A stretch of DNA of 49,518 nt, taken from positions 1 through 49,518 of IMG/VR virus record IMGVR_UViG_3300009151_000103; one strand, 5' to 3'. Each line of letters starts with the position of its first letter. Position 1 is the first letter of the stretch. Made by a program: the position numbers and the translations under genes. Of the stretch, positions 2,210 to 24,016 are shown one piece after another. The notes beneath the pieces are model-generated. The model worked only from the letters and a program-made list of their open reading frames with translations, had not been told where the DNA came from and did no database searches. This DNA is from a virus.

Positions 2210-3904
2210 ATGATCAAAACAATCATTGCAATATATCCAGGACGCTTCCAACCATTTGGCAGACACCACGCAGAATCATTTAAGTGGTTAGAATCTAAAT
2301 TTGGTAAAGGTAAAACCTTCATTGCAACATCCGACGTAGTTACAGCTCCTAAAAGTCCTCTTAATTTTAAAGAAAAGAAAGAAATCATAAGCAAATACGG
2401 CTATGGTTCTAGTCTTGTTCAAGTTAAAAATCCCTATCAAGCTCAAGAAATTACCGAAAAGTTTGATCCAAAGACTACAGCGGTTGTTTTCATGGTTGGA
2501 GAGAAAGATATGAAGGAAGATCCTAGATTTAAGATAGGAAAAAAGAAAGACGGAGGAGATTCTTACTTCCAAGCTTACAAACCTGGAATGCAAATGCAAG
2601 GCTACATACAACACGGCTATTTGATCGTTGCTCCTCACACCTCTTTTAAAATTACAGGATTTGGCGAGATGAGCGGCACTACTATTAGACAAGCCTTATC
2701 TTCTAAATCCACACCAGAACAATACAAGAAATTATTTACCGATATCTTTGGTTGGTACGATCCTAAAATTGCAGAAATGTTGAAAAAAAAGTTTTCTCAA
2801 TCTAGTTTAAAAGAGTCCTCTAGTTTTGAGAAGTCTCTTATATTAGAATATCTAGTTTACAATTTATTAAACGAAGGTGGAGCTGCTGGACACATGGCAC
2901 ACCCTTTCGATATTCCTTCTGTAAAAACTGGTAAAGATCTTATCGACGTTTTTAACAAGACAGCAGTAAGTTTAACAAAGAAGCCAGTTCCAGTTAAAAT
3001 AGACGGCATCAATGCTTCTATTAGACTTGGAAAAATAGACGGTAAAGTACAATTTGCAATGGACAGAGGCTCTAATAAGCCGCTAGACGTTAAAGGCGTT
3101 ACTTCTAAAGACCTAACTGATAGATTTGGCGAAGGCCATGGCATGATTAAGATCGGCGGTAAAGTTTTAGAGATATTCAACAAGGCATTGCCAGCTATTA
3201 AAGGAGAACTTGCTCAGTTAGGTATGCTAAAGAATCCAAACATCTTATTTAATATAGAATATGTAGAAGGAAAATCAAATGTACAAGAGTACGAGAGTAA
3301 CTTCTTAGCAATACACAATCTTTTACAGATAGATAGAGTTAGTCCAACTAAAAGAGTGACCAAAGAGATCTCTTACGACAAGAAAGCATTACAGTCTTTG
3401 ATAGAGAAGATGACGCCAATAGCAAAAAAGTACGGATTCGAAGTAATGGGAGAAATTCCTGCCAAGTTAAAAGGCAAACCTAACTTCTCTTCAGCTTTAT
3501 CTAAGAGCTACACAGTAGTTTTAAGTAAAGGAAAGAAAGAAACCAAATCATTGAGCGATTGGTTGAGCAAGGCTAAGAACACAAAGGGCATGAAATTGAA
3601 ATTAAAAGACGGAAAGACTGTCGATGCTCTAAGCAAACAAGTGTTTATGTGGATCATGGATGGAAAACCAGTAGATCAGTTAGTCTCTGACATGAAAGAT
3701 GCTCAGATTGCTATTGATTCTTTTGTAATATACAATGCTACTATGCATTTAGGAGACGTTATCTTGGACAATATGACTTCACCGCTTGGAGACGTTAAAG
3801 ATCAAGAGGGAATAGTAGTAAGAGACAAAGCAGTTTACGACAAACCATATAAAATCACCGGATCCTTTATAGTTAGAGGTTTACAAACCGCATTCGGAAA
3901 ATAA
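2210..3904 (+). CDS. Nucleotidyltransferase (NadM/cytidylyltransferase-like) fused to a ligase-like nucleotidyltransferase domain
   Basis: A 564-aa protein with two apparent domains. Residues 1-190 look like a HIGH-superfamily adenylyl/cytidylyltransferase. The motif near residues 9-20 (YPGRFQPFGRHH) is a variant of GxFxPxHxGH, and SGTTIR at 155-160 matches the late ISSTxxR-type motif. From about residue 225 a second domain begins with GGAAGHMAHPFD. It contains KIDG at 263-266, like the ligase/capping motif I lysine, and EGIVVR near the C terminus, like motif IV; a clear motif V is less obvious. I recall this second part from a marine-phage family of unknown function (possibly DUF6267). Possible roles are NAD or nucleotide metabolism plus nucleic-acid end sealing, neither proven. 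The linker carries LLNE-GG at 219-224, which fits the T4 gp21 cleavage pattern. Confidence 0.7.
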   Translation: MIKTIIAIYPGRFQPFGRHHAESFKWLESKFGKGKTFIATSDVVTAPKSPLNFKEKKEIISKYGYGSSLVQVKNPYQAQEITEKFDPKTTAVVFMVGEKDMKEDPRFKIGKKKDGGDSYFQAYKPGMQMQGYIQHGYLIVAPHTSFKITGFGEMSGTTIRQALSSKSTPEQYKKLFTDIFGWYDPKIAEMLKKKFSQSSLKESSSFEKSLILEYLVYNLLNEGGAAGHMAHPFDIPSVKTGKDLIDVFNKTAVSLTKKPVPVKIDGINASIRLGKIDGKVQFAMDRGSNKPLDVKGVTSKDLTDRFGEGHGMIKIGGKVLEIFNKALPAIKGELAQLGMLKNPNILFNIEYVEGKSNVQEYESNFLAIHNLLQIDRVSPTKRVTKEISYDKKALQSLIEKMTPIAKKYGFEVMGEIPAKLKGKPNFSSALSKSYTVVLSKGKKETKSLSDWLSKAKNTKGMKLKLKDGKTVDALSKQVFMWIMDGKPVDQLVSDMKDAQIAIDSFVIYNATMHLGDVILDNMTSPLGDVKDQEGIVVRDKAVYDKPYKITGSFIVRGLQTAFGK

Positions 3905-3905
3905 C

Positions 3906-4316
3906 ATGACGCCAAAAGAAAAAATAGCAATCATAAAAGACTTTGTTGAATTCTGCGAAAATGAAATAAACATAGAAGAGCTTCCAAAGATTAAATTTAT
4001 TTTGGACAACAAATGGGCAAAACATTTGCATAGTTTTGGCCGATACCGAAACGAAAAGCGAGACGTAACTGTTTACATGGGTAAAAGAAATTTGGCCGAT
4101 ACGCTTAGAACGCTAGCACACGAATTGGTTCATCACAGACAAAACGAACTTGGAAAACTTGACATGAATAGCGGAGACACCGGGTCTAATATAGAAAACG
4201 AGGCCAATTCAATGGCAGGTATATTAATGAGAAAATTTGGAAAAACTCACGAAATGATATACGAATCCAAAAGTTTAAAACTTACCGATATCTTAAAAGA
4301 AATAAAACAAAAGTAG
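3906..4316 (+). CDS. Putative zincin-like metallopeptidase
   Basis: 136 aa. HELVH at residues 72-76 is a classic HExxH zinc site, and the acidic NIENEA segment at 95-100 could supply the third (glutamate) ligand, so this looks like a small gluzincin-type phage peptidase. It begins 1 nt after the preceding stop and ends 1 nt before the next gene, so it is translated in a tight cluster. There is no signal peptide. The C terminus, KLTDILKEI at 125-133, matches the short KLxDILxE segment that starts several genes downstream. The substrate is unknown. A structural zinc protein without protease activity cannot be excluded. Confidence 0.7.
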   Translation: MTPKEKIAIIKDFVEFCENEINIEELPKIKFILDNKWAKHLHSFGRYRNEKRDVTVYMGKRNLADTLRTLAHELVHHRQNELGKLDMNSGDTGSNIENEANSMAGILMRKFGKTHEMIYESKSLKLTDILKEIKQK

Positions 4317-4317
4317 A

Positions 4318-4890
4318 ATGCAACAATCAGTTTTGAAAAAAGAATTTAGCAAGAAGGACGTACAAAGAGCCAGAAACATTATTACTGGTAACACCGGAGC
4401 TGCTACACAGACTTTGGCCGGTTGGGAAAAGAAATCTATAGATCATACAGAAGGAGACGTTTGGGAAGAAGACGGACGCAAATGGACTATATCCAATGGT
4501 ATTAAGCAGAACATTACCAAGATGGACAAGTTCAAAAAGCTAGTGGTCATGCCTTTGTGTTGTCCGAAGTGCAAAAAAGCGATGAAGCTTACTGATCTTA
4601 ATAAGAAAATGTACGCTATTCATGATAGATGCTTTGATTGCGTAATTGAAATGGAAGCAAAGATAAAATTGGACGGAAAATGGGAAGAGTACGAGCGTGG
4701 AATGGTAAAATCCAACGCTAGGGCCAGCTTATTGGACTTCGAAAAAGCAGTAGATGCATGGTACGAGGAAAAAGACACCTTTGTTTCTGAGCAAGGCGAC
4801 GTTGAAAAGTGGTCAGGTGGAGATAAGAATAAGATGTACGAAGAAATTAAAGCCAGACTACAAGAGATCAAAAGTTCCGATATTTATTAA
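4318..4890 (+). CDS. Conserved phage zinc-finger protein of unknown function
   Basis: 190 aa, starting 1 nt after the upstream stop. Two CxxC pairs (CPKC at 82-85 and CFDC at 105-108) should bind one zinc. The N-terminal half has GDVWEEDGRKWTISNGIKQN, which I recognise from conserved hypothetical proteins of marine T4-like phages but cannot tie to a function. The C-terminal third is charged and helical. The last codons, D-I-Y-stop, overlap the ATATTTAT motif used by the next gene. Structural or DNA-binding roles are both possible. Confidence 0.7.
   Translation: MQQSVLKKEFSKKDVQRARNIITGNTGAATQTLAGWEKKSIDHTEGDVWEEDGRKWTISNGIKQNITKMDKFKKLVVMPLCCPKCKKAMKLTDLNKKMYAIHDRCFDCVIEMEAKIKLDGKWEEYERGMVKSNARASLLDFEKAVDAWYEEKDTFVSEQGDVEKWSGGDKNKMYEEIKARLQEIKSSDIY
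4880..4887 (+). promoter_or_regulatory. ATATTTAT motif, candidate late promoter
   Basis: Exact octamer lying inside the last codons of the upstream gene (GAT ATT TAT TAA), 14 nt before the ATG at 4902. The stop codon comes directly after it. Confidence 0.5.
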
Positions 4891-4901
4891 TAAAATTTTC
4901 A

Positions 4902-5903
4902 ATGCCTGCTACATCAATCAAACAACAACAAGCAATGGGTATCGCAAGAGGAATCCAAAAAGGTGAAATCGAACCCAAAAAAGGCACTACTTCAGCTAAA
5001 ATCGCAAAAACAATGAAACCAGGAGACGTAAAAGACTTCGCTTCTACAGAACACGAAGGCTTACCTAAAAAAGCAAAGAAAGAAAGCATTGACGGTGCTA
5101 TCGATACATTATACATGGTTAAAAAGCCTTATTCAGGCTGTCAATTAACTGATCTTGTTCAACCAATCGATCCCTTAGTAGGTCTTGGTGGTTCAGAAAT
5201 AGTTCCAGATCACGTACACGCTGTATTTGCAGATCAAGATCAAGCTCAATCAATTGCAGAAGGTCTTTACGAAGAACACGGTCAAAAGATGGAGGCTTTA
5301 GAAGAAAAGAAAAACGATGTAGCTTCTAAAATTACAAAGGCAATAGAGGAATTTGAAAAGAAAAGAAAGGAACACGTAGATGCAGCTAAAGCAGACCCTA
5401 AAAACGCTAGTCAACACAAAGATAAGATTGCTATGATGGCTACAAAGATCGACGATTTGATGAGTAAGCTTGAAAAAGTTGAAAGATCAAAAAAAATAGA
5501 AGACAAAAAAGAAAAAAAGGTAGTTAAAGAAGCCGTAGCACCTCCAATTCCTTCAATAAACAATAGCACAAGCGGTTTGGCAAAAGCATTTAGACAATAC
5601 GCTCAAGATGTAACTTCTAAATCAGGTATGTCTTCAAAAGAGATCGCAGGTATTGAAAAATTAATTAACACTATTTTATCAAAAGCTTCTGCAGCAGAAA
5701 TTGGAATCGCTATAGATAAAGCCCAAATGGCATTAGATAATTCTACTAAAAATGTAGGTCAAAAACCAGGAATTCCGCCTTTACCAGCAAAAAGTGGATC
5801 TGATAAACCAAAGATTCCTGCAATTCCAGCTTTACCTGCAAAAAAAGCAGACACAAATAAGCCAACAATTCCTGCAATTCCAGCTTTACCAAAGAAAAAA
5901 TAA
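4902..5903 (+). CDS. DUF3008-type phage protein with coiled-coil middle and Pro-rich tail
   Basis: 333 aa. Residues 1-60 (MPATSIKQQQAMGIARG, then a DFASTEHEGLP segment) match the DUF3008 pattern seen in many T4-like phages. Residues 60-130 form a second globular region. Residues 130-210 are lysine/glutamate-rich and probably coiled coil. The C-terminal 60 residues repeat IPAIPALPAKK-like units, a proline-rich tail common in structural or scaffolding proteins. No enzyme motif is visible. It follows an ATATTTAT motif, so it may open a transcript. The family call for the N terminus is fairly good; the role is unknown. Confidence 0.7.
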   Translation: MPATSIKQQQAMGIARGIQKGEIEPKKGTTSAKIAKTMKPGDVKDFASTEHEGLPKKAKKESIDGAIDTLYMVKKPYSGCQLTDLVQPIDPLVGLGGSEIVPDHVHAVFADQDQAQSIAEGLYEEHGQKMEALEEKKNDVASKITKAIEEFEKKRKEHVDAAKADPKNASQHKDKIAMMATKIDDLMSKLEKVERSKKIEDKKEKKVVKEAVAPPIPSINNSTSGLAKAFRQYAQDVTSKSGMSSKEIAGIEKLINTILSKASAAEIGIAIDKAQMALDNSTKNVGQKPGIPPLPAKSGSDKPKIPAIPALPAKKADTNKPTIPAIPALPKKK

Positions 5904-5907
5904 TTAA

Positions 5908-6279
5908 ATGAGTGCAATATCAAAATTTATATCTACTCTTTTAAATTCTAGACAACAAGCTCATGTATTTCATTGGCAAGAACAAGGCGAAGGCTCTGAA
6001 GCTCGCCACTTGGCTCTAGATAACTACTATAATGAAATTATAGAACACGTAGACGGTCTTGTAGAATCTTATCAGGGTCGCTATGGCATCATTAGAGGCT
6101 ATGATTTGAATTTTAGATTAAGAGAAGATAATGATCCTGCTTTTTATTTTAGAGCATTAGTTAAATACGTAGAAGCTGCAAGACAAAAGCTTCCTCAAGA
6201 CTCTTATATTCAAAATCAAGTAGACGAAATAGTAGATTTAATCGAAACAACTAACTATAAATTAGATAATTTACACTAA
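5908..6279 (+). CDS. Small helical phage protein (DUF5856-like, possibly ferritin/Dps-like fold)
   Basis: 123 aa, almost entirely helical. His19 and His22 in HVFHWQ, His34, and acidic residues in the EIIEHVDGLVE segment resemble the spacing in Dps/ferritin-like helical bundles. I recognise the sequence type from conserved marine-phage proteins usually labelled DUF5856. Iron binding or DNA protection is possible but not shown. The stop codon overlaps the next start (TAATG), suggesting translational coupling. Confidence 0.65.
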   Translation: MSAISKFISTLLNSRQQAHVFHWQEQGEGSEARHLALDNYYNEIIEHVDGLVESYQGRYGIIRGYDLNFRLREDNDPAFYFRALVKYVEAARQKLPQDSYIQNQVDEIVDLIETTNYKLDNLH

Positions 6280-6563
6280 TGATTAAATTAGCGGATATAT
6301 TAGAAGAGATTATAGATGAAGCGAAGTATCATGGCAAAAATGTTACTCTAAATCAGCCTCATTTAAGTCCAGATGGTCCTAAAAAGAGATCAGTATACGT
6401 TAAAAATCCAAAAGGAAACGTAGTTAAAGTAAATTTCGGACAAAAAGGAGTTGCAATTAAAAAGCACCTTCCCAAACATAGAAAGTCTTATAGAGCAAGA
6501 CACGGTTGTGATAATCCAGGACCAAAATGGAAAGCAAACTATTGGTCTTGTAAAGCATGGTAA
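6279..6563 (+). CDS. Small basic conserved phage protein with targeting-like N terminus
   Basis: 94 aa, start overlapping the previous stop. The N terminus, MIKLADILEEIIDEA, matches the short KLxDILxE pattern shared with the next genes and contains LEE and IDE sites compatible with T4 gp21 cleavage. The rest is very basic. A C-terminal segment with RARHGCDNPGPKW and YWSCKAW, carrying two cysteines, is typical of a conserved marine-phage hypothetical family. The basic body could bind packaged DNA. Function unknown. Confidence 0.7.
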   Translation: MIKLADILEEIIDEAKYHGKNVTLNQPHLSPDGPKKRSVYVKNPKGNVVKVNFGQKGVAIKKHLPKHRKSYRARHGCDNPGPKWKANYWSCKAW

Positions 6564-6564
6564 T

Positions 6565-7227
6565 ATGATAAAACTAAAAGACATACTATTAGAAATGGGC
6601 GTAGGAACTATAAAACCCATCATGGATTTGTACGATGAAAATCCAGAGAAAGTTTCTAGCGTTATATTTCCAAATAATTCAAAAGCATCAAGACAAGAGG
6701 TAGAAAGAGAATTACGAGGCGCTTCTTACGAAGATTTTAATCAATACAGACAAGAACTTGGAGTAGAAATAGAAGAAAGCAAAGAAAAACCAGGTTTGTG
6801 GGCAAATATTAGAGCGCAAAGAGCTAGGGGAGAAAAACCGGCTAGAAAAGGAACTAAAGCATTTAAACAAGCCGTTAAAGCTGCTGACGATATTAATACT
6901 ATGGATGAACTTAGTCTAAAAAAAATATTAGGAACTACTGCATTAGCTGCCGGTTTAGCAATGTCTCCAAACCAAGCCAAAGCACAAGAGCCAAATAAAG
7001 CTCCAACTACACAAGTTCAAAAACAAGACACAACAACTGGATTTGGCCTTGGAAAATCTTCTCAAGAGCACACTGCTAGAACAATGGCAAGATTAAATGC
7101 TACAAAAGATTTAATGCAAAAATTAGGAAAGACGGAACTAAGCGCAGGCATAGAAATACTAGATTCAAAAACATTTCAAACAAAAAATGGTTACGAAGTT
7201 GAAATGAAAGTTAAAATATCGCAATAA
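6565..7227 (+). CDS. Conserved phage protein with targeting-like N terminus and an internal signal-like segment
   Basis: I place the start at 6565 (220 aa). An upstream in-frame ATG at 6451 would lie deep in the preceding gene, and 6565 follows that gene's stop directly and gives MIKLKDILLEMG, matching the neighbours' N termini. Middle: KPGLWANIRAQRARGEKPA, a stretch common in phage proteins. Residues 118-140 form a signal-peptide-like run: two lysines, a hydrophobic stretch, then AKA-QE. The C-terminal 70 residues resemble LPP20-like periplasmic domains. An internal start at M113 (6901) could yield a separate secreted product; that is speculative. Confidence 0.65.
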   Translation: MIKLKDILLEMGVGTIKPIMDLYDENPEKVSSVIFPNNSKASRQEVERELRGASYEDFNQYRQELGVEIEESKEKPGLWANIRAQRARGEKPARKGTKAFKQAVKAADDINTMDELSLKKILGTTALAAGLAMSPNQAKAQEPNKAPTTQVQKQDTTTGFGLGKSSQEHTARTMARLNATKDLMQKLGKTELSAGIEILDSKTFQTKNGYEVEMKVKISQ

Positions 7228-7238
7228 AATACCAAATA

Positions 7239-8018
7239 ATGAAACTTAAAGACTTACTTAAAGAAGCTATCGGAGAAATCTCTTACAAAAAAGCTGGTTT
7301 ACAACATCCAAACAAAGCGGACTTAAATCACGATAAAGAAATCTCTTCTTACGAAAAGAAAAGAGGCCAAGCAATTGAGAAGAATTTAGAAGAATACAAT
7401 CCACAAGACGATGAAAATAACATTCGTTTTGGTATGGAAGTAAGACCACTACAAACAATGCCTTCACCAGATAATGGAGAAGTACAAGCGATGAATAGCA
7501 ATATGGTGTGCGAACAATGCGGAGCTGCGATGATGTATGAAGACAGAATGTGCTCTGAGTGTGGATATATGCAAGAAGAGGGTGAACAACAACCAAATCC
7601 TCAAGCACCAGATCACGAAGTGTTTATGGCAAAAGCCAGTTTAAAAAGCATTATCAGCAATGCAAGCGAATTGATGAATAAATTGGGTGACGAAGAGATA
7701 GATATTCCTGCTTGGGTTCAAGATCACATTACAAACGCGGATAACTATATTGGTCAAGCAAACGACGGATACTACGAATACGAAGCTGGTGAAGGAAACG
7801 AAACTCCTGACGAAGAAGCATTATACGAAGCAAAACCATCTGCTGGATTAACAAAAAAGCAAAAGAGCGGTATCGAAAAAAAAGCTCATAAAGGCAAAAA
7901 CGTTGGACACGGAGGATTTGATAAATTAGCATCTACCGCTGCAAAAGAATACGGATCTAAAGAAATTGGTAAAAAAGTTGCTGCAGCCGCAATGTGGAAA
8001 GGCATTCATCGTAAATAA
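7239..8018 (+). CDS. Conserved phage protein with EF-hand-like loop and zinc ribbon
   Basis: 259 aa. It begins MKLKDLLKEAIGE, very close in form to the T4 capsid-targeting sequence (MKTYQEFIAEA), with LKE-A as a possible gp21 site. Residues 28-39 (DLNHDKEISSYE) fit the EF-hand/dockerin calcium loop at positions 1, 3, 5 and 12. CxxC pairs at 91-94 and 105-108 form a zinc ribbon. Around residues 145-180, DIPAWVQDHITNADNYI is a segment found in many phage internal proteins. The C-terminal part is Lys/Ala-rich. It is likely a virion or internal protein, but this is inference. Confidence 0.65.
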   Translation: MKLKDLLKEAIGEISYKKAGLQHPNKADLNHDKEISSYEKKRGQAIEKNLEEYNPQDDENNIRFGMEVRPLQTMPSPDNGEVQAMNSNMVCEQCGAAMMYEDRMCSECGYMQEEGEQQPNPQAPDHEVFMAKASLKSIISNASELMNKLGDEEIDIPAWVQDHITNADNYIGQANDGYYEYEAGEGNETPDEEALYEAKPSAGLTKKQKSGIEKKAHKGKNVGHGGFDKLASTAAKEYGSKEIGKKVAAAAMWKGIHRK

Positions 8019-8027
8019 AATAATAAC

Positions 8028-8627
8028 ATGAACTTAGACAAATTAAAAGGCCACATTCCTGATTCAGTTATTTCTCAAATACCAGGAATTCAAGAGAAAT
8101 TTGAAATCAATACTCCATTAAGATTGGCTCACTTCTTGGCACAATGCGGTCACGAATCAGGCGGTTTTAAACTAGTACAGGAGAATTTAAACTACGGCGC
8201 TAAAGGTTTGGTAGGTATTTTTAAGAAGTACTTTCCTGACGAAGCAAAAGCCTTATTATACGAAAGAAAACCAGAAAAGATAGCCAATTTGGTTTACGGC
8301 GGCAGAATGGGTAACGGCGCAGAAGCAACTGGAGACGGTTGGAAATTTCATGGTCGTGGATTTATTCAATTAACAGGTCACGATAACTACAAAGCGTTCT
8401 CTGCTGAAATAAACGAAGACTGCGTAGCTAACCCTGATTTGGTCGCTACAAAATATCCTTTGGCATCAGCTGCTTGGTTTTTCCATAAAAATGGCTTGCA
8501 CAAATTGGCTGACGCCGGAGCTACAGACGCTGCAGTTACTTCAATCACAAAGAGAGTAAACGGTGGAACTATTGGTTTAGAAGATAGAATTAAACACTTT
8601 AAAGAGTATCATACTTTATTAGCATAA
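8028..8627 (+). CDS. Glycoside hydrolase family 19 endolysin (lysozyme/chitinase-like)
   Basis: 199 aa, a whole single-domain GH19 enzyme. HESGGF at 42-47 carries the expected catalytic glutamate (E43). Further family marks are the NYGAKGL segment, the GDGWKFHGRGFIQLTG core, and a C-terminal VNGGTIGLEDR segment. It should cut peptidoglycan glycan strands at lysis. There is no signal peptide, so export would need a holin, and no holin is obvious nearby. Its stop overlaps the next start (TAATG). A virion-associated role is possible because its neighbours look like packaged proteins, but lysis is the simplest reading. Confidence 0.9.
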   Translation: MNLDKLKGHIPDSVISQIPGIQEKFEINTPLRLAHFLAQCGHESGGFKLVQENLNYGAKGLVGIFKKYFPDEAKALLYERKPEKIANLVYGGRMGNGAEATGDGWKFHGRGFIQLTGHDNYKAFSAEINEDCVANPDLVATKYPLASAAWFFHKNGLHKLADAGATDAAVTSITKRVNGGTIGLEDRIKHFKEYHTLLA

Positions 8628-10636
8628 TGAATAAGGACCTAGACATATTAAAAGCAATTCTTTTGGAAGCTGACGAAGATACAAAAGAAACAGAAGATAC
8701 AGAAACTACGGATTCTGAAGTAACTGACGCGAATGCAAAAGCGGACAAACCTGACTCTTCGTTCGATAAAGATCCAATGGGATTTATTCTTAAGAAGTAT
8801 CACTCTCTAAACATTTTATTAGAAGAGTTAATGACTCCTGCTTTTAGAGAATATGTTACGGCTATATTCATACAAGCTCCAAAACCAACTACATTTAAAG
8901 TAGTTTTACACAATAGTCAATTTTTCTATTTGACTTACATGGGAGATAACACTTACGAAGCAGTTATCGCCGGTAAAAGACATTACCTATCTAGTATTGG
9001 TGAGAAAGAAAGAGCGATGAAAGGCATCAGTAGATTATTACAACAAGGAAGTCCTTTAAAAACAAAAGGACCTGATGGAGCTGAACAAGGAACTAGACCC
9101 GAAGGCGAAGACGATGGCAGTTTAAGCGGCGGAAATAATAACGGAGGCGGAGATCAAACAGGTGGAGGATCAACAGAAGCGCCAGCAGAAACTGAACCCG
9201 CAGAAGAGGAAAACGAGCCAATAAAAGAATCAATCATACTAAGAGCTTTGCTTAAAGAAGCGGTGACTCCTGATTTGTTGAAGGCAATTCAAAAAGCACT
9301 TTCAGATGCTAAATATAAAGTATCAATAGAGAATAAAGGCAGTAGAGGACAAGTGTTAAGAACTAATTTTGAAACTTCAAAGAATGTTCAAGCTTTAATT
9401 GAAAAAGCGCTAGGTAAATTATTGCCTAAAGACGCTTTTAAAGTACAAGAATTTCAAAAAAACCAAGGAGAATCCAAATCAGGCACTTATCCTACTTATA
9501 AAGTACAACTAACTAAACCTGTACAAGGCTATAAAAAAGGAGAAACAGTTTTTATAGTAAGTACAGTAAAAGAAGGAGCTTCTACAAAAACAAAAGCACT
9601 AACTCCAGTTAAATTGGGGCTTACTAGCGGTAAATTTAAAAATGCGACCTCATTAGCTAACACGATTAAAAAAAATGTACCTAATGTTACTAATGATAAA
9701 TCGCTTAAAGAACTATTAGATAGTTTAGTTGATGACGTATTAAAAGGCGCAGCTAAAGGTAAATTTGCAGACACTGCTGAAATTACTAAATTCGATCAAG
9801 AAATACCATTAAGCGAAAGAACTAGAAAGGCACTTACTAAAGTTAGTCCACAAGACGTTGGAATGGTTGGATCAGATTTTGGTGAATGTTTAGGAGCAAT
9901 TGCTTTATTAAAAAGTGTAGTCAACGCTGGATCTGGAATTGTATTTCCCGCTGCTGAAGCCAATCCTTTAGCAGATTTTCAATTAGACGGATTTAACGTA
10001 TCGGCAAAATACAACAAAGGCGGAGCAGCAACTATAACAGACACAGTAAAAAATATTAAGCCTGAACAACTTACCACACCAGGACAAAAATCGTTATACA
10101 AATTACTTACGACTATTATACGTGAAGATGGAGTTCAAGGTCCTCTAAGTATTGCAAAAGCATTAAAATTAGACGGAATGGATAAACTCTCTCAAATTAT
10201 AAAAGTCCCAGTTCAAAATATAGATGCACAATCTATAAACGATTATGTTAATAAGATTTTAAAAACAGCAACTACTGACGAACAAAAAGATGCCATCATA
10301 AAAAAGAAATTTGTGCCTTTCTTTGCCGCTATTAAAAAAGCTCCTGGTTTTCCTATAAGATGGAGAGACATATCTCCTAAAGCTTATTATGGAGTAATTA
10401 CTTCTCCATTGGTTAATTACGTAGCTGCTTCCCTAAACTCTAGTAAAGTTTATAAAAAAGCCTTAACCGATATAATGAGCAAATCAGAAGTTAAACAATT
10501 ATATTTAACAATGAACGTTAAACAGAATACTGCTAGATTTAATTTAAAGAGCTTCTCTTCTTCTGAATTTGAATTTGAATCTTCATTGTCAATATACAAT
10601 CCAAAAAATAAGAGGTTGGCCTTTAGAATGCTTTAG
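8627..10636 (+). CDS. Large conserved phage protein, possible packaged or structural protein
   Basis: 669 aa. The N terminus, LDILKAILLEADED (residues 5-18), resembles the neighbours' targeting-like segment and is followed by an acidic stretch. Residues 45-150 (DPMGFILKKYHSLN, then APKPTTFKVVLHN) match a conserved marine-phage protein. A Gly-rich acidic linker follows (about 150-200), then a second segment, IILRALLKEAV at 203-213, and a long C-terminal domain. Within that domain FGECLGAIAL, a DFQLDGF segment and SAKYNKGG could be the acidic and lysine positions of a PD-(D/E)xK-like nuclease, but the fit is loose and I do not assert it. Function unknown. Confidence 0.65.
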   Translation: MNKDLDILKAILLEADEDTKETEDTETTDSEVTDANAKADKPDSSFDKDPMGFILKKYHSLNILLEELMTPAFREYVTAIFIQAPKPTTFKVVLHNSQFFYLTYMGDNTYEAVIAGKRHYLSSIGEKERAMKGISRLLQQGSPLKTKGPDGAEQGTRPEGEDDGSLSGGNNNGGGDQTGGGSTEAPAETEPAEEENEPIKESIILRALLKEAVTPDLLKAIQKALSDAKYKVSIENKGSRGQVLRTNFETSKNVQALIEKALGKLLPKDAFKVQEFQKNQGESKSGTYPTYKVQLTKPVQGYKKGETVFIVSTVKEGASTKTKALTPVKLGLTSGKFKNATSLANTIKKNVPNVTNDKSLKELLDSLVDDVLKGAAKGKFADTAEITKFDQEIPLSERTRKALTKVSPQDVGMVGSDFGECLGAIALLKSVVNAGSGIVFPAAEANPLADFQLDGFNVSAKYNKGGAATITDTVKNIKPEQLTTPGQKSLYKLLTTIIREDGVQGPLSIAKALKLDGMDKLSQIIKVPVQNIDAQSINDYVNKILKTATTDEQKDAIIKKKFVPFFAAIKKAPGFPIRWRDISPKAYYGVITSPLVNYVAASLNSSKVYKKALTDIMSKSEVKQLYLTMNVKQNTARFNLKSFSSSEFEFESSLSIYNPKNKRLAFRML

Positions 10637-10951: not shown

Positions 10952-11647
10952 ATGGTAAAATTAGCAACAAGAGCAATTATAGCCTTAGTCTGTATTATAG
11001 GAGTTTGGCTTATTTTCAAGCAATTTGAAGGCGAAAGATTTCAAACAGTAGCTTACGAACAAAAAATAGATTCTTTAGGTGTGGAAATAAAAGGTCTTCA
11101 CCAACAAAACGATAGCTTAGAAACCACTATCACTGATGAAGAGTACAAGAATCAAGCGTTAACAGTAAAAGCAAACATTTTAAAAGACAACTTAAAAAAC
11201 TTAAAAGAAGACAATTCTAAGTTAAAAGCCGCTGCAGCATACCATCCTCATCAAGTGGATAGTTTCTTCGTAGACAGATACAAAGATCAATATCAAGTAC
11301 AAACTAAAGACACAACTCATTTACCAATTCCAGTATCAAAAGCTGTTGTTGTTGACTTAATTGATTTCGACAGAACAAAAAATATCGTTTTAAATCAAGA
11401 CAGTTTAATTACAAACCTAGAATCTACAGTAACCGGTAAAGACAAAATTATCGTTACATTAAGAACTAAAGAAGGCAACTACGAATCAATCATTCAAAAG
11501 CAAGTTCAACAACAAGACAATTACAAAATTATTGTTGAAGGTTTAAAGGGCGATTTAAAGAAGTCCGATTTAAAAATGAAGAGGAATAAAATTGAAAAGT
11601 TTGTTATGGGTGCCCTTATCATAGGTCTCGTAGTAACGCATAAATAA
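10952..11647 (+). CDS. Membrane-anchored coiled-coil protein, possible spanin
   Basis: 231 aa. A hydrophobic segment at about residues 8-25 (AIIALVCIIGVWLIF) anchors the N terminus. It is followed by heptad-like coiled coil to about residue 95, a central region, a second coiled coil (150-210), and a short hydrophobic C-terminal segment (FVMGALIIGLVV). One TM plus a periplasmic coiled coil is the layout of Rz-type inner-membrane spanins; the second C-terminal TM is unusual. ALVC is not a good lipobox, so a lipid-anchored u-spanin is unlikely. The GH19 endolysin lies 2.3 kb upstream, consistent with a lysis role but not proof. The stop overlaps the terminase start. Confidence 0.6.
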   Translation: MVKLATRAIIALVCIIGVWLIFKQFEGERFQTVAYEQKIDSLGVEIKGLHQQNDSLETTITDEEYKNQALTVKANILKDNLKNLKEDNSKLKAAAAYHPHQVDSFFVDRYKDQYQVQTKDTTHLPIPVSKAVVVDLIDFDRTKNIVLNQDSLITNLESTVTGKDKIIVTLRTKEGNYESIIQKQVQQQDNYKIIVEGLKGDLKKSDLKMKRNKIEKFVMGALIIGLVVTHK

Positions 11648-16920: not shown

Positions 16921-18342
16921 ATGACAACAGCAATCTTATTCAAGAAACACAGAGCAGGAGAAATTAGCAAGGAGAAATTCTTGTACGAAGTTAGAAGGGA
17001 CCAACAGTTACCTTTTATTACAAATATGACTTCTTACGAAGACGCTATTAAGATACTTAAAAACAAGAGTATCGTTAAAGAAGCGAGTGCTCAAGACAAT
17101 ATACATCCTTACACTTTAAAAAGAGGTGCTGAAGCTGAATTGCTAAAGGGCGGAGAAATTACAAATGTAGCTTACGCAAAAGCGGTTGCAACTGCTACAA
17201 AGAAATTAGCAAAAGATCCAACTGCTTACGACGATTTACATATTTCTAACTCAGCAAAGATCAAAAAAGCTGACGCCAAATTAGGAATGACCCCAGTTAA
17301 AGGCGAGAATTTTGTTGATAAGAATAACGGAATGAAGAAGATTAAAGGCTTCCACGACGTTAAAGCAAATACAAAAGCTTCTAAGAAAGAGAATAAGAAA
17401 GGCAATCCAAAAGGCGTTAAGATGATGAAAGAATCTGTTCTTAGCGAAGATTTACAACACGATTTTTGGGACGATATTAAAGACGGTAAACTTCAAATTG
17501 GAGGTATGTACGTAGTAGACGTAGAAGAAGATAACGTTAGTGTATATTTCCGTTTAGCTGGTCAACCTGCACAATCAGGAGAAAAAACAACAGATATCCA
17601 AAAAGCTGTAGCTACTTACAATAAAGAATCAGGCCAATGGAACTTTTCAGGAGACATAAAGAATAAAGTAACTATGGATCCAGAATCAGAAAAAACTTTA
17701 GACTACATCAAAGGAAAACTTGGTGGAGAAAAAAGTGACAATGGTGGTTTACAAGAGTCTTTAAACATTCTAAAACAACTTCTTTCTAAAAAAAAAGTTA
17801 AGTTAACTGAGGATACAGAAAATATCTACGAAGACACACATCCGGTTTATGGATACGGCCAAGAAGTTCCTTTACCAGAATCTGACGTTAAAGAATTAGG
17901 CGCAAAAACAGCGGTTGTTAAAACTATTGTTGGCGGAACTTTAGAACTAGAAATAGAGAAAGAAGGCCAAGAACCAATGATAATTCACAGACAAGTTAAC
18001 GTTATTAACAAGGCAAAAGACGACTTGGCTTTACAAAGTCAAACTGACGATAAGGTAGATCTTGATAAAAAATGGTCTAATTGGGATAAAAGAGGAGAAA
18101 AAACATTCGCAGGAGTTGTAGATTTTCCTTCTCAAATAGATGCAGACAGACAAAAGAAAACTATGGGAATAGTTGAGAAACTAAGAAAGTTTTTAAAAAA
18201 GGACAAGAAAAAAGAAGTAGACGAAGCTACAGAATTTGACGCAGCTGGAAAAGCAATATTTGTTCCTGATAACGAAGCAAATGGAAAAGAGGCAGAATTA
18301 AAAAAAGCAGGTGTTAAATACACTAAAAAAAGAGTACAATAA
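16921..18342 (+). CDS. Conserved head-locus phage protein upstream of the prohead protease
   Basis: 473 aa. The N terminus (ILFKKHRAGEISKEKFLYEV, then a TSYEDAIKILKNKSIVKEA segment) is a conserved block in marine T4-like phages, ending in IVKE-A, a possible gp21 site near residue 56. Residues 58-160 continue the conserved region (HPYTLKRGAEAELLKGG, then a HDVKANTKASKK segment). The C-terminal half holds charged, variable domains, including LNILKQLLSKKKVKLTED and a PVYGYGQEVPLPESDVKEL block. The stop overlaps the protease start, implying coupled expression. Prohead core or internal protein is the likely class; no enzymatic role is seen. Confidence 0.65.
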   Translation: MTTAILFKKHRAGEISKEKFLYEVRRDQQLPFITNMTSYEDAIKILKNKSIVKEASAQDNIHPYTLKRGAEAELLKGGEITNVAYAKAVATATKKLAKDPTAYDDLHISNSAKIKKADAKLGMTPVKGENFVDKNNGMKKIKGFHDVKANTKASKKENKKGNPKGVKMMKESVLSEDLQHDFWDDIKDGKLQIGGMYVVDVEEDNVSVYFRLAGQPAQSGEKTTDIQKAVATYNKESGQWNFSGDIKNKVTMDPESEKTLDYIKGKLGGEKSDNGGLQESLNILKQLLSKKKVKLTEDTENIYEDTHPVYGYGQEVPLPESDVKELGAKTAVVKTIVGGTLELEIEKEGQEPMIIHRQVNVINKAKDDLALQSQTDDKVDLDKKWSNWDKRGEKTFAGVVDFPSQIDADRQKKTMGIVEKLRKFLKKDKKKEVDEATEFDAAGKAIFVPDNEANGKEAELKKAGVKYTKKRVQ

Positions 18343-18986
18343 TGTCTAAGCAATTACTTATAGAACACGCGCTGTTTCACCCGATCACTAATTTAAACGA
18401 GGGAAAAAGAAACATAAATGGCAACTTAATAGTGCGTGGTCAAGTACAAGCTTGCGACAAACCAAACGCTAACAATAGAATTTATCCTTACGATACTTTA
18501 TACGCTCAAGTAGAAAAATACGTTAACGGACCAATTAGGGAGAACAGAGCTCTAGGAGAATTGGATCATCCTGAAACTTCGGTTATAAATCTAAAGAATG
18601 TTAGCCACAACATCTTAAAATTATGGTGGCAAGATAAGGATCTTTACGGTGAGATAGAAATCTTACCTACACCATCAGGAAATATCTTGACACAATTATT
18701 TGCAAACAACATTACAGTCGGTATCTCTTCAAGAGCTTTAGGATCGGTTAGTCCAATTGGCGAAGGATTCGTTCAAGTTGAGGACGACCTAGATCTTATA
18801 TGCTGGGACTTCGTATCCACACCATCTACTTATGGAGCATACATGAAACCGGCAGGAAGCTCACCAAGTCTTCGAGAATCAGTCGATTTGTCTTTGGCTA
18901 AGGTAAACAGATACGAAAGAGCAAGCCGTCTTATTTCAGACATTATATGTTCCCAGAGCGGTATCTGCTGCTTGAATAACAATTAA
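18342..18986 (+). CDS. 21: Prohead core protein protease (gp21-like)
   Basis: 214 aa, close to T4 gp21 (212 aa). It is a serine protease of the herpesvirus-assemblin type that matures the prohead by cutting scaffold, capsid and internal proteins after (L/I)xE. The catalytic histidine is likely H76 in GELDHPETS and the serine S129 or S130 in VGISSRALGS, matching T4 spacing. DNRIYP-like (NNRIYPYDTL) and WDFVSTPS segments are also family marks. The C terminus carries cysteines (CSQSGICC). Start overlaps the upstream stop. It lies just ahead of scaffold and capsid genes, as in T4. Confidence 0.93.
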   Translation: MSKQLLIEHALFHPITNLNEGKRNINGNLIVRGQVQACDKPNANNRIYPYDTLYAQVEKYVNGPIRENRALGELDHPETSVINLKNVSHNILKLWWQDKDLYGEIEILPTPSGNILTQLFANNITVGISSRALGSVSPIGEGFVQVEDDLDLICWDFVSTPSTYGAYMKPAGSSPSLRESVDLSLAKVNRYERASRLISDIICSQSGICCLNNN

Positions 18987-19131: not shown

Positions 19132-20385
19132 ATGGAAGACTTGTACAAACAGGCAATCCTTGATGCAAAAGCACTAAGAGCTAGCGCCATGGCTAACGCT
19201 AAAGCTGCATTGCAAGAGGCATTCCAGCCTAAAATTGAAGAAATGCTACGTCAATCTTTATCTGAAGATGAAGAAGAAATGGACGAAGCAAAAGAACCAG
19301 TAGCTGGTAAAAAAGGCGTAGCCTTAAAAGCTGCTGAAAAAGAATCTCCTTTTAAGAAAAAAGTTAAAGACTCTATCAAAGAAGAAGAGGAAGAATTAGA
19401 CGAAACTGAAGAAATGGACGAAACCAAAGAAATGGATGAGTCTGAAGAAATGGACGAAACCAAAGAAATGGATGAATCTGAAGAAATGGATGAGTCTGAG
19501 GAAATGGACGAAGCTGAAGAAATGGACGAAACAGAAATGGACGAAACCTCTTTAGAAGAAATCCTTGGCGAATTAGAAGCTTTGGCTAACGAAGGAAACG
19601 AAATTAGTCAAAACGAAGAAGAGTCAGAAGAAGAGGAAGAATTTGACGAAGCTAAAGCCGAAGAAGAGGGCGAAAGCGACGAAGAAGGTTCAATGGACCA
19701 CGAAGCTGGTGAAACAGCTGGTGAGGAAGATGAAGAAAAAGTCATCACAATCACTTTAGGTCAATTGAAAGATATCCTTGCTCCTTATCAAGCTGATGAA
19801 GAAGGTGCTGAAGGCGCTGAAGGCGACGATGACACTGCAGACATCAACTTAGATGAGATTTTTGCTGAATTAGAGGAAGCTCAAAAAGGTAAAAAAGAAG
19901 ACGAATTGGATGAAGCTGAAGAAGACGAATTAGACGAGAACAACAACTCTATCATGCAACCAGGCGTAGCAGTTCCAGGATCAAATCCAGTAGCCGCACA
20001 AACAAAAGGTAAAAATGTAGGTACAGCTGTTTCTGGTCAATTAAAAGAGGCTAACAAGACAATTCAATATCTTCAAACTCAATTGAAAGAAGTTAATTTA
20101 TTGAACGCTAAGTACTTATTCATGAACAAATTGTTTAAGTCTAAGTCTTTAACTGAATCTCAAAAAATGAAAGCTGTAAACGCTTTCGATAGAGCTACTA
20201 CAGTTAAAGAAGTAAAAAATACTTTTGCTACTTTAAATGAATCTTTCTCTGTGACTAAGAAAAAGTCAATCAACGAAGGTTTCGCATCTCAAGCTGCTGG
20301 TTTAGCACCTAAACAAACGATCGAATCTGATCCTTTTGTTTCTAGAATGCAAGTATTAGCAGGATTATCAAAAACAAAATTTTAA
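19132..20385 (+). CDS. 22: Prohead scaffolding core protein (gp22-like)
   Basis: 417 aa, strongly acidic, sitting between protease and major capsid protein exactly where gp22 lies in T4. An N-terminal helix (YKQAILDAKALRASAMANAK) is followed by LQEA, LDEI and LEEA-type sites open to gp21 cleavage. Residues 92-140 are a run of (E)EMDE(T/S/A) repeats. The C-terminal 120 residues are helical, with SLTESQKMKAVNAF and a TVKEVKNTFATLNE segment typical of this family. It builds the internal core around which the shell assembles and is then degraded. It is longer and more acidic than T4 gp22 (269 aa). Confidence 0.88.
   Translation: MEDLYKQAILDAKALRASAMANAKAALQEAFQPKIEEMLRQSLSEDEEEMDEAKEPVAGKKGVALKAAEKESPFKKKVKDSIKEEEEELDETEEMDETKEMDESEEMDETKEMDESEEMDESEEMDEAEEMDETEMDETSLEEILGELEALANEGNEISQNEEESEEEEEFDEAKAEEEGESDEEGSMDHEAGETAGEEDEEKVITITLGQLKDILAPYQADEEGAEGAEGDDDTADINLDEIFAELEEAQKGKKEDELDEAEEDELDENNNSIMQPGVAVPGSNPVAAQTKGKNVGTAVSGQLKEANKTIQYLQTQLKEVNLLNAKYLFMNKLFKSKSLTESQKMKAVNAFDRATTVKEVKNTFATLNESFSVTKKKSINEGFASQAAGLAPKQTIESDPFVSRMQVLAGLSKTKF
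19408..19550 (+). repeat. Tandem 15-nt/5-aa acidic repeats in scaffold gene
   Basis: About nine near-copies of a unit encoding E-E-M-D-E or K-E-M-D-E with T, S or A spacers. Units of the type GAAATGGACGAA recur with small synonymous changes, so copy number could change by slippage. Confidence 0.8.
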
Positions 20386-20396
20386 TTCCATAAAAA

Positions 20397-22043
20397 ATGG
20401 CAAATTTAGTACAATCATTATTAAATGAGTCCGCTCAGAACGCTCAACAAGCTCAGTTTACTGTAGCTCAGAAGCTTTCTAAGAAGTGGGCAAAATCTGG
20501 CCTTTTAGAAGGTTTAGAGAATCAAGACAAGTCAACTATGTCTATTATCTTGGAAAACCAAGCTAAGCAATTAGTAGTTGAATCTTCTCAAACAGGTGGT
20601 GGTATCACAAACGGTGCTAACTTTACAGCTGGTACTGGTGAACAATGGGCTGGTGTTGCTTTACCGTTAGTTCGTAAGATCTTCGGTCAAATCGCTGCAA
20701 AAGAGTTCGTTTCTGTTCAACCAATGAACTTACCTGCTGGTTTAGTATTCTATTTAGATTTCCAATACGGAAACACTAAAGATCCTTTCACCGCTGGTCA
20801 ATCTTTATACGGTACAAACACAGCTAACTTCGGTAACGCTGCTGCTGGTGCTTTATACGGTGTTGGTCGTTTTGGTTATTCAACTAACCAATTTTCTGCA
20901 TCTTCAGGTGCTGCAACAGTAGCTTCGGCTTCTTCTGCAGAAATCGATTTCAATTCAGATTACACATCTTCTTTAGCTGCTAATGAAATTAAGAAAGTAA
21001 CTTTCAATACTTCATCTTTAGCTAACTTCGATGCTAACGCTGTTCGTTCTTTTATTATCGTTTCTGGTTCAGTAACTGCTGCAAACAACTTGCAACAATT
21101 TGCTTACACTAGCGGTGGTACTATTAGTTTCTTCGTAAGTGGTTCTTCTACTCAAGTATCTCAGTCAAGTGCATTCACTGTTGAATACACTAAAGCTACT
21201 GATTTCAATACAAGAGGTGATTTTGAAGACAGAACTGCAACTCAAGGTTTCTCTGTTCCTAACGCTGCTTCAGCTACTTCAATCGTTATCCCTGAGATCA
21301 ACGTTCAAATGAAGTCTCAAACAATCAGTGCTAAAACAAGAAAATTGAAAGCACAATGGACTCCAGAATTCGCACAAGATTTGAATGCTTACCATTCTTT
21401 AGATGCTGAAGCTGAATTAACAGGTTTATTATCTGAGTACATCTCTTTAGAGATCGATTTAGAAGTAATGGACATGTTAATCTCTAACGCTCCAACAGTA
21501 GAATATTGGTCAGCTAAGGTTGGTGATCAAATCAACGCTGCTAAAACTGCGTTTACTAGTAACACAACTGGTGTTTACTACAACCAAATGACTTGGTTCC
21601 AAACTATTGGTATCAAGTTACAAAAAGTTTCTAACATCATCCACCAAAGAACTTTACGTGGTGGTGCTAACTTCATGGTAGTTTCTCCAGCAGTAGCTAC
21701 AATCTTGGAATCAATCCCAGGATTTGCAGCTGATACTGACGGTGCAGCAGATACAATGAAATATGCATTCGGTGTTCAGAAAGTAGGTGCTTTAAACAGC
21801 CGCTACAAAGTGTACAAAAACCCTTATATGACCGAGAACGTAATCTTATTAGGATTCCGTGGTACTCAGTTCTTAGAAGCAGGTGCTGTATACTCTCCTT
21901 ATGTTCCATTGATCATGACTCCATTAGTGTACGATCCAGCTACATTTACTCCACGTAAAGGTATCATGACTCGTTACGCAATGACTATGATCCGTCCGGA
22001 ATTCTACGGATTAGTAGTAGTATCAGATTTACAAATAGTTTAA
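20397..22043 (+). CDS. 23: Major capsid protein (gp23-like)
   Basis: 548 aa, HK97-fold shell protein. ENQAKQLVVESSQTGG near residues 53-68 marks the N-terminal propeptide boundary; gp21 would cut after E62 (VVE-S), close to the T4 site at E65. VQPMNLPAGLVFYLDFQYG is the conserved gp23 segment. Others are the LRGGANFMVVSPAVAT stretch and the C-terminal block with FTPRKGIMTRYAMTMIRPE. Codon use is visibly GCT/GGT/TCT/TTA-rich, as expected for a highly expressed gene. It is followed by an intrinsic terminator 26 nt downstream. No separate gp24 vertex gene is seen. Confidence 0.96.
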   Translation: MANLVQSLLNESAQNAQQAQFTVAQKLSKKWAKSGLLEGLENQDKSTMSIILENQAKQLVVESSQTGGGITNGANFTAGTGEQWAGVALPLVRKIFGQIAAKEFVSVQPMNLPAGLVFYLDFQYGNTKDPFTAGQSLYGTNTANFGNAAAGALYGVGRFGYSTNQFSASSGAATVASASSAEIDFNSDYTSSLAANEIKKVTFNTSSLANFDANAVRSFIIVSGSVTAANNLQQFAYTSGGTISFFVSGSSTQVSQSSAFTVEYTKATDFNTRGDFEDRTATQGFSVPNAASATSIVIPEINVQMKSQTISAKTRKLKAQWTPEFAQDLNAYHSLDAEAELTGLLSEYISLEIDLEVMDMLISNAPTVEYWSAKVGDQINAAKTAFTSNTTGVYYNQMTWFQTIGIKLQKVSNIIHQRTLRGGANFMVVSPAVATILESIPGFAADTDGAADTMKYAFGVQKVGALNSRYKVYKNPYMTENVILLGFRGTQFLEAGAVYSPYVPLIMTPLVYDPATFTPRKGIMTRYAMTMIRPEFYGLVVVSDLQIV

Positions 22044-22122: not shown

Positions 22123-22794
22123 ATGACTGATACGAACTCGATTTCAAAAAAGTCTCCAAAAAATCCAATTAAGTTTTTAATTCCACTGAACGAGGAGCAA
22201 AAGCAAGCCAAGTCAATAATTCTCGATAACAAAATAACTGTTCTAAAGGGACAAGCCGGATCCGGTAAGTCCATGTTGGCAGCACAGATCGCCCTAGACC
22301 TTTTGTTTAAAAAAGAGATAGAAAGAATCATTTTAACCAGACCTGCAGTAACTTCTGGAGAAGACATCGGTTTTTTGCCTGGTACAAAAGAGGACAAATT
22401 GGCTCCTTACACGGCTGCCATATACGACAACATGTATAGGCTTTACAACAAAGAAAAGATAGACAAAGAACTATTGGACGGCAAAATAGAAGTGATTCCT
22501 TTAGCGTTTATGAGAGGACGAAATTTGAGCAATTGTTTTGTTGTAGTGGACGAAGCTCAAAACATTACAAACAGACAGATGGAGCTTTTATTGGGCAGAG
22601 TGTGCGTTGGAACTAAAATGATTATATGCGGAGACGGAGCTCAAATAGATCTTAAAGACAGAAAGATGAGCGGTTTTAATTTTATATGCACCAACTTTAA
22701 AGAGGTACCAGGATTTGAGGTAGTGACACTAAAGACCAACCACAGAGACCCAATAGTCGAAAACATATTGGAAATATACAAAGCGTACGAATAA
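22123..22794 (+). CDS. phoH: PhoH-like ATPase
   Basis: 223 aa. Walker A GQAGSGKS at 43-50, the RPAVTSGEDIGFLPG segment near 77-91, Walker B VVVDEAQN near 139-146, and the arginine-finger-like TNHRDPIV near the C terminus all match the PhoH family. PhoH genes are common in marine phages; the host protein belongs to the phosphate regulon and has RNA-linked helicase/ATPase relatives, but the phage role is unsettled. Here it sits alone between a terminator and the neck genes, each side with its own candidate promoter. A weak purine-rich stretch (GAAAGG) precedes the start. Confidence 0.9.
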   Translation: MTDTNSISKKSPKNPIKFLIPLNEEQKQAKSIILDNKITVLKGQAGSGKSMLAAQIALDLLFKKEIERIILTRPAVTSGEDIGFLPGTKEDKLAPYTAAIYDNMYRLYNKEKIDKELLDGKIEVIPLAFMRGRNLSNCFVVVDEAQNITNRQMELLLGRVCVGTKMIICGDGAQIDLKDRKMSGFNFICTNFKEVPGFEVVTLKTNHRDPIVENILEIYKAYE

Positions 22795-22825
22795 TTATAG
22801 TTTTTGGGTTTTACCAATAGCTTAA

Positions 22826-22833
22826 ATATTTAT
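22826..22833 (+). promoter_or_regulatory. ATATTTAT motif, candidate late promoter for neck/tail genes
   Basis: Exact octamer in the 52-nt gap after phoH, 13 nt before the ATG at 22847. Confidence 0.5.
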
Positions 22834-22846
22834 TTGAAAGCATTTA

Positions 22847-24016
22847 ATGGCAAACCCTACAATATACAACGGATCTCCTGTATTTATCACAGGTAGTAGC
22901 ACCCCATTTGGGTACTACGATTTGGATCCTCAATTCGTAGCAGACGCGCCAAAGGTAGCAAATTACTGCGCAAGAAAGCTGGGATTTCCTATAATGGACG
23001 TAGAACTGCAAGACACAAATCTTTTTACCTGTTTTGAAGAGGCGGTTTCAGTTTATTCTGAAGAGCTTTACCAATCAAAGATAAAGGACAATTACTTAGG
23101 GCTTGAAGGCGCTTCTACAGGTTCTCAATTGAATAATACTGTTGTTGTACCTTCTTTGAACTCTATAGTTACCATTGCGGACAACTACGGAGCTCAAATA
23201 GGAATTGGAGGTACGATAGAATTTTACTCTGCTTCTTTAGAACTTTCAGGAAGCCAGCAAGTTTACGACATGCAAAAATGGGCAGTCAACTCTGGAATGA
23301 TAAGTGGAAGCGATAGAATAGTGATACAAGAGGTAATGTACAAGGGAAATCCTGCCGTAAATCAATACTACGATCCGTATTTGGGTGGTTCTATAAATTA
23401 CCAAGGCGCTACAGAAAACTTTGGTTGGGCGAGCTATTCTCCAGGATTGAATTTTACTTTGTTCCCAGTTTATTGGGACATTCAAAGAATTCAAGAGATC
23501 GAGATGTCAAATCAAGTAAGACGCTCTTGGTTCTCTTTTGAATTAACAAACAACAAGCTTACAATACTGCCTAGACCAGAAACCAATGGCATGTACGTTT
23601 GGGTGAAGTACTCTAAGAAATCCGACTTTGCAGATCCAACAAAAAATAGTCCTTACGGAAACGATAAGACTTTGGTTAGCAATCCATCAAATGTTCCTTA
23701 CGGCACAATTACTTATGGACAGATCAATCACCCTGGAAGACAATGGATATTTGAATACACTTTGGCTTTATCTTCAGAATTACTTGGATTAGTTAGAGGA
23801 AAATATGCACAAATTCCTGCACCAGGTTCTGAGGTTACTTTGAATGGAGCCGATTTAATTTCAAAAGGTCAAGCTCAACAACAGGCTTTAAGAGAAAGAC
23901 TTCGTTTAGATTTCGAAGACATGAGTCGCAAAGCTCAATTAGAAAGAAAACAATCAGAAAATCAATCTATATCGAGCACTTTATCAGAAGTACCGATGTT
24001 TATATACATAGGATAA
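22847..24016 (+). CDS. 13: Neck protein (gp13-like)
   Basis: 389 aa (T4 gp13 is about 309). The N-terminal part (GYYDLDPQFVADAPKVANY, then a RKLGFPIMDVELQD segment) matches marine gp13-type neck proteins. The middle has EVMYKGNPAVNQYYDPYLG and IQRIQEIEMSNQVRRSWFSF, and the C terminus is helical with DLISKGQAQQQALRERLR. gp13 completes the head after packaging and, with gp14, forms the docking surface for the tail. The gene is followed 1 nt later by the gp14 candidate. Confidence 0.82.
   Translation: MANPTIYNGSPVFITGSSTPFGYYDLDPQFVADAPKVANYCARKLGFPIMDVELQDTNLFTCFEEAVSVYSEELYQSKIKDNYLGLEGASTGSQLNNTVVVPSLNSIVTIADNYGAQIGIGGTIEFYSASLELSGSQQVYDMQKWAVNSGMISGSDRIVIQEVMYKGNPAVNQYYDPYLGGSINYQGATENFGWASYSPGLNFTLFPVYWDIQRIQEIEMSNQVRRSWFSFELTNNKLTILPRPETNGMYVWVKYSKKSDFADPTKNSPYGNDKTLVSNPSNVPYGTITYGQINHPGRQWIFEYTLALSSELLGLVRGKYAQIPAPGSEVTLNGADLISKGQAQQQALRERLRLDFEDMSRKAQLERKQSENQSISSTLSEVPMFIYIG

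Follow-up and report, generated by a model that had tools for sequence, protein, structure and literature searches.

In phage T4, the capsid-targeting sequence (CTS) of the internal protein IPIII acts in targeting mainly through residues 4 and 7 and in processing through residues 8 and 10, and the prohead protease gp21 cuts after L/I-x-E (reviewed in PMC9026906). The CTS suffices for packaging of a foreign protein in T4, and it may be the route by which T4-like phages load varied proteins (PMC9026906); a 10-residue propeptide has also been documented on T4 gp24 (PMC9958956). In this study, we analysed a 49,518-base viral contig (IMG/VR record IMGVR_UViG_3300009151_000103, hereafter the window), a head/tail fragment of a T4-superfamily myovirus with gp17, gp20, gp21 and gp23 present, and describe a family of CTS-like segments on otherwise unrelated proteins; the segments, the genes that bear them and the head genes all lie on the + strand. 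We consider it very probable that these segments are T4-type capsid-targeting or propeptide tags cut by a gp21-type protease, and that they serve in addition as a joint and as a point of payload exchange; packaging, cleavage and injection in this phage, and the activity of its payloads, are what we infer.

Tag segments and the T4 register

A preliminary description had placed such segments at the starts of four genes, at the end of a peptidase gene and inside a 669-aa protein, and all six are present there. The first, MIKLADILEE (6279..6308), opens a 94-aa basic protein (6279-6563) with LADILEE at residues 4-10 (6288-6308), and the second, MIKLKDILLE (6565..6594), opens a 220-aa protein (6565-7227) with LKDILLE at residues 4-10 (6574-6594); both have the register L4/I7/L8/E10, as in T4 IPIII. 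Relative to this 4/7/8/10 layout, which is exact in the first two, the third tag, MKLKDLLKE↓A (7239..7268; the arrow marks the putative cut) on a 259-aa EF-hand-like/zinc-ribbon-like protein (7239-8018), is shifted by -1, with LKDLLKE at residues 3-9 (7245-7265). The fourth, MNKDLDILKAILLE↓A (8627..8671; tag1 of the 669-aa protein), is shifted by +4, with LKAILLE at residues 8-14 (8648-8668), because this protein starts MNKDLDILKAILLEA; the segment LDILKAILLEA, earlier taken as the start of the gene at 8627, is thus present, though not as the start. Nor are the four genes strictly consecutive, as had been stated, since an endolysin without a tag (8028-8627) lies between the third and the fourth. 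The remaining two segments are LTDILKE near the C terminus of a 136-aa peptidase-like protein (3906-4316; residues 126-132, 4281..4301), retained in close orthologs, and KESIILRALLKE↓A inside the 669-aa protein (9224..9262; tag2), with LRALLKE at residues 205-211 (9239-9259).

Among relatives, the 94-aa protein has 11 distinct versions, all in the same register [M/V]IKLxx[IL][IL]xE and several starting at GTG, and the tag of the 220-aa protein is retained in almost all listed orthologs. As for the bodies behind the tags, that of the 94-aa basic protein matches phrog_7595; the sole Pfam support for the zinc ribbon of the 259-aa protein is a match below threshold (PF08271, E 0.008), and the LPP20-like label of the 220-aa protein found no Pfam match. 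Family searches revealed no similarity of the tagged bodies to T4 internal proteins. A signal-peptide-like stretch, KKILGTTALAAGLAMSPNQAKA (6919-6984), lies far behind the tag of the 220-aa protein, and a comparable one follows the tag of a Flavobacterium phage immuto protein (gene at 1803).

The resemblance to T4 internal proteins suggested earlier holds in the register of two tags and in a positive control, in which the tag rule run over T4 recovered ipII, ipIII (MKTYQEFIAE↓A), gp24 (MAKINELLRE↓S) and Alt, together with a number of further early-position matches. The gp21 homologue was likewise confirmed (18342..18986; phrog_207, E 6e-44); its N-terminal MSKQLLIE resembles LIE-9 of T4 gp21, and [QE]LLIE is found at the N terminus in 15 of the 17 listed homologs of the clade. 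The N-terminal region of gp23 (20397..20582) has a tag-like MANLVQSLLNE↓S and a putative maturation site, QLVVE↓S, at 20568-20582, and alignment to T4 gp23 places Q[LI][VI]xE↓[SAT], with a variable P2, near the end of this region in all clade members and in immuto. This phage thus encodes a gp21-type protease, with a putative hydrophobic-x-E specificity that we infer from the conservation of these sites.

The strict motif, Φ-x-x-Φ-Φ-x-E or [LIF]xx[IL][LI]xE with its start within the first ten residues, is present at the N terminus of 4 of the 47 + strand genes of the window, against means of 0.09-0.22 in three kinds of shuffle; four was never reached in 2000 shuffles of each kind, a figure that is optimistic as the motif was written after the tags had been seen. 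Since the pattern was derived from the window tags, more weight is placed on tests in other genomes, and those on T4, relatives and cyanophage S-CREM2 are less affected by this post hoc definition. Across 156 related loci, motif starts are most frequent at residues 3, 4 and 8 and scarce at other positions. When the relatives' proteins were clustered by their bodies, taken as the sequence beyond residue 20, the strict motif occurred on 18 of 764 body clusters (3.2 expected, maximum 8 in 500 shuffles) and the T4-like form on 41 of 764 (10.8 expected, shuffle maximum 20), the clusters being approximate in that single-linkage can merge families and the simple gene caller misses GTG starts. The search of related genomes for the tag on unrelated bodies, proposed in the preliminary description, returned more of them than shuffling would predict.

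Payload exchange at an internal tag

The 669-aa protein consists, in order, of tag1, an acidic linker, a conserved carrier domain detected by profile search (residues 45-140, 8759..9046), a second acidic/Gly linker, tag2 (IILRALLKE↓A, residues 203-211) and a 458-aa payload (residues 212-669, 9260..10636). The carrier domain profile found 103 segments and 44 unique full-length proteins in related loci, and a loose form of the motif is present at the N terminus of 33 of 36 distinct carrier sequences despite the variable linker behind it. In the AlphaFold model, tag1 is a predicted helix (residues 3-14), after which confidence is low up to residue 50, tag2 forms a short predicted helix (202-208) within a low-confidence stretch (142-213), and the payload is mostly confident.

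The C-terminal parts of the 44 carrier proteins fall into four groups with no detectable sequence similarity between groups, and relatives diverge inside or directly after tag2: loci L023 and L024 share 98% identity as far as LTEAAILKG, within tag2, and have unrelated sequences beyond it, and the pairs L032/L179 and L030/L179 behave in the same way at 93%. The carrier-domain homolog of immuto is the end of a longer protein, whose gene is followed by one for a distinct 353-aa protein containing GDVKIGTQDIEIKV. Stand-alone homologs of three payload groups occur in T4-like cyanophages, in pelagiphage HTVC008M and in Methylophilales phage Melnitz, and many of these genes lie close to mazG, gp41 and a cytidylyltransferase gene. 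The Melnitz protein opens with MQGFKTFLSE↓A, and its alignment to L023 begins within the tag (E=1e-64). We propose that tag2 is both a cleavable linker and the domain-exchange junction of the 669-aa protein.

Joints of the same kind are found in two other proteins. Within a 564-aa nucleotidyltransferase fusion (2210-3904), VYNLLNE↓GG (2855..2875) connects the nucleotidyltransferase to a second domain, and LLxE↓GG is conserved in most orthologs; in the L032 homolog, identity is 85% across residues 1-224, as far as the junction, and unrelated domains follow, one of them behind GLLLE↓A. The 136-aa peptidase-like protein ends four residues after LTDILKE, and the same polypeptide continues past this C-terminal tag region into further domains in L032/L083 and L069/L058; in L069 a nucleotidase stands there, and immuto has its nucleotidase in a separate gene that starts MKKVMGNLADLLLEE. 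The two copies away from gene starts that had been noted earlier thus fit the same scheme, one as a junction with exchangeable payloads and the other as a point where further domains are fused in relatives.

Some details of these chains may be recorded here. The L032 chain contains a nucleotidyltransferase, a GDLDLAV-type and a KWDG-type domain; LLNE↓GG follows the first of these, and LLLE↓A precedes the last. Homology of the second (KxDG) domain of the 564-aa protein to a 400-aa KWDG protein of cyanophages was considered and was unsupported by BLAST. In immuto, a longer shared N-terminal segment around FDLKKFLVENKLT is found on four otherwise unrelated proteins (L168:1803-2318; L167:8807-9355, 22632-23633 and 23633-23932), possibly a second tag type.

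In the window payload, E420, D450, S459 and K461 (E420...D450...S459-x-K461) are invariant in 17 of 17 aligned sequences, and two other aligned payload groups retain D...S-x-K, the immuto counterpart being GDVKIGTQDIEIKV. The E...D...(D/E/S)-x-K pattern resembles the layout of PD-(D/E)XK nucleases, and a putative nuclease activity of the payloads is a lead resting on this residue pattern. Structural relatives of the window payload in a viral structure library are uncharacterised viral proteins alone, and PHROGs holds three of the payload groups as families of unknown function.

In the mechanism that we propose, the tag would be a short amphipathic helix: its two leading hydrophobic residues would attach the protein to the prohead core, and its hydrophobic-x-E end would be cut by the phage gp21 protease during head maturation; after the cut the cargo would be free in the head and would leave with the DNA into the host. 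N-terminal tags would act in this way on the 94-, 220-, 259- and 669-aa proteins and probably on gp23, and a C-terminal tag on the 136-aa peptidase, and where tags lie between domains, as in the 669- and 564-aa proteins, a single packaged chain would yield two separate cargo domains. Tag2 would in addition be an exchange junction, with the conserved carrier on one side and, on the other, one of four or more unrelated payloads that have the nuclease-like residue pattern.

The alternative that survives best accepts the packaging tags and takes the C-terminal domains of the carriers as DNA-processing enzymes acting in the head or during assembly, not as effectors. The nuclease-like residue pattern and the head gene neighbourhood agree with it. 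However, wholesale domain exchange between close relatives is typical of conflict-system effectors and not of assembly enzymes, and the stand-alone homologs lie in the cyanophage replication region beside mazG and cytidylyltransferase, so we regard this alternative as unlikely.

Virion proteome of S-CREM2 and competing explanations

The link between the tag and presence in the virion was tested out of sample in the related T4-like cyanophage S-CREM2, for which a virion proteome by mass spectrometry has been published (PMC10665884, Table 3). The annotated genes were scored with the pattern fixed beforehand in the body-cluster analysis, and the split into structural and non-structural proteins followed the table of that paper, its two large endolysins being counted as structural. 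The pre-set tag is present on 5 of 26 virion-detected non-structural proteins vs 4 of 167 undetected ones (p=0.0026), the five being a SAM hydrolase (MKDFDSFLEE), a kinase (MKRFDAFLTE), a cytidylyltransferase (MKNFSSFLTE↓A), gp13 and gp136; the available text of the proteome paper does not report cleavage. A layout-specific comparison gave 5 vs 0 (p=3e-5) and, having been defined after the matches were seen, is descriptive only. T4-GC190, the cytidylyltransferase group, has also been detected in S-SM1 virions (PMC3037559), and the S-SSM7 member of the group starts VKSFGQFLTE↓A. In the virion-detected, Cas9-like S-CREM2 gp12 (L217:7704-10313), FASFMAE↓A, at roughly residues 19-26, may be an off-register tag.

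Several results weigh against the mechanism proposed here. With all 52 detected S-CREM2 proteins included, the association under the pre-set rule weakens (5/52 vs 4/167, p=0.037), and most detected proteins have no tag, as expected for tail proteins. A broader N-terminal pattern was not significant in S-CREM2 (p=0.32), and the pre-set pattern alone was therefore used. Some matches outside the head region look like ordinary coiled segments, for example a 157-aa gene at 94106 of a 174-kb relative (G001), and the payload homologs that cyanophages S-RIM44, S-RIM32 and S-CAM1 encode as stand-alone genes are without a tag. Pfam, PADLOC and PDB sequence searches assigned the payloads to no confident family, and a PDB fold search with the window carrier/payload model returned nothing significant; for one payload the best match was Hjc (1gef), also not significant (E 0.19, prob 0.35). 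Comparing the payload groups by profile gave no significant match, and a common payload origin is therefore not claimed. A literature search found no virion proteomics or N-terminal peptides for the clade of the window, and none of the former for immuto, which a paper on Baltic Flavobacterium phages does not mention.

The segments might instead be prohead-protease sites without a targeting role, on core or scaffold proteins that gp21 degrades, as it does T4 gp67/gp68, and that are never delivered. Hydrophobic-x-E is indeed common to all gp21 substrates and stands on the gp21 and gp23 of this clade too, and the tagged genes are directly upstream of the terminase; against this, positions 4 and 7 keep their extra hydrophobic residues, the modelled cargo includes long folded domains, and tagged S-CREM2 proteins are present in virions, which makes such an explanation improbable. 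Somewhat less credible still is the idea that the segments are homologous remnants of a single ancestral N-terminal segment, or an amphipathic helix of a general kind used for oligomerisation or membrane/scaffold contact, and not a packaging tag: amphipathic KLxxLLxE-type helices are found elsewhere and 4/167 undetected S-CREM2 proteins match as a base rate, but the position-specific peak at residues 3-8, the enrichment over shuffles of the same N-terminal residues, the T4 register and controls and the association with virion detection in S-CREM2 all argue otherwise. The reading as a transferable packaging tag, first put forward in the preliminary description, is thus supported by the register, the T4 controls, the enrichment, the gp21 and gp23 sites of the clade and the S-CREM2 proteome.

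Gene neighbourhood and known systems

The gp17, gp20, gp21 and gp23 of the window were identified by PHROG matches, with the terminase gp17 at 11647 and the portal gp20 at 13258; an acidic scaffold-like protein is at 19132. Nearest isolates by gp23 include immuto, Microcystis phage Mel-JY01 and Rhodothermus phage RM378. Among the tagged genes lies a DUF5856 protein (PF19174; 5908-6279) without a tag, which also matches a PHROG named starvation-inducible regulator. Downstream of the head cluster is a long tail/fibre region (25759-49518) with many SASYALTASYA-type repeats and a family of alike 214-239-aa proteins (DGLVL.LDA...NYNA..SRF).

The general principle, CTS loading of varied proteins, is already known from T4 (PMC9026906). 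What appears to be new within the searched literature is the breadth of the tag in an aquatic clade, its internal and terminal use as a joint, and payload exchange at the tag. The chances seem to us evenly balanced that in T4-superfamily phages of aquatic bacteria the gp21-cleavable tag is a general cassette joint, which labels cargo, links domains for separation in the head and offers a recombination point for unrelated nuclease-like effectors, amounting to a capsid-delivered polymorphic-effector system. If the reading as packaging tags is right, a ten-residue rule would help to recognise, from sequence data, those phage proteins that accompany the DNA into the cell, and would apply across T4-like phages, including virion enzymes reported there, in the available text, without a packaging signal. 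It would also point to an exchangeable, head-delivered payload system and make the question of what is injected during the first minutes of infection testable in cultured phages, among them immuto, Melnitz and S-CREM2.

The closest described system is the T4 CTS of IPII and IPIII with the gp24 propeptide. The window tags share with it the hydrophobic/Glu spacing, two of them in the same 4/7/8/10 register, as well as the L/I-x-E cut-site class, a gp21 protease in the genome and unrelated proteins behind the tag; they differ in having L/I where T4 has Y/F, and the window has more tagged proteins and both internal and C-terminal use. In the T4-like cyanophages, virion enzymes (the cytidylyltransferase T4-GC190, a kinase and a SAM hydrolase) have been detected in virions (PMC3037559, PMC10665884), and several have the same kind of tag, whereas the available text of both papers explains them as metabolic or regulatory and does not mention the tag. 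In SPN3US and phiKZ, several head proteins likewise have N-terminal propeptides cleaved by the prohead protease (PMC5694885, PMC10052503), but these are mostly longer than 100 residues, follow the motif A-x-E in SPN3US and belong to another phage lineage. The polyvalent proteins of phages and conjugative elements (PMC5512222) are similar in their multi-domain build, in their proposed co-delivery with DNA and proteolytic separation, and in domain shuffling; their separation, however, is attributed mainly to built-in metallopeptidase domains, whereas here gp21-type sites stand at the junctions.

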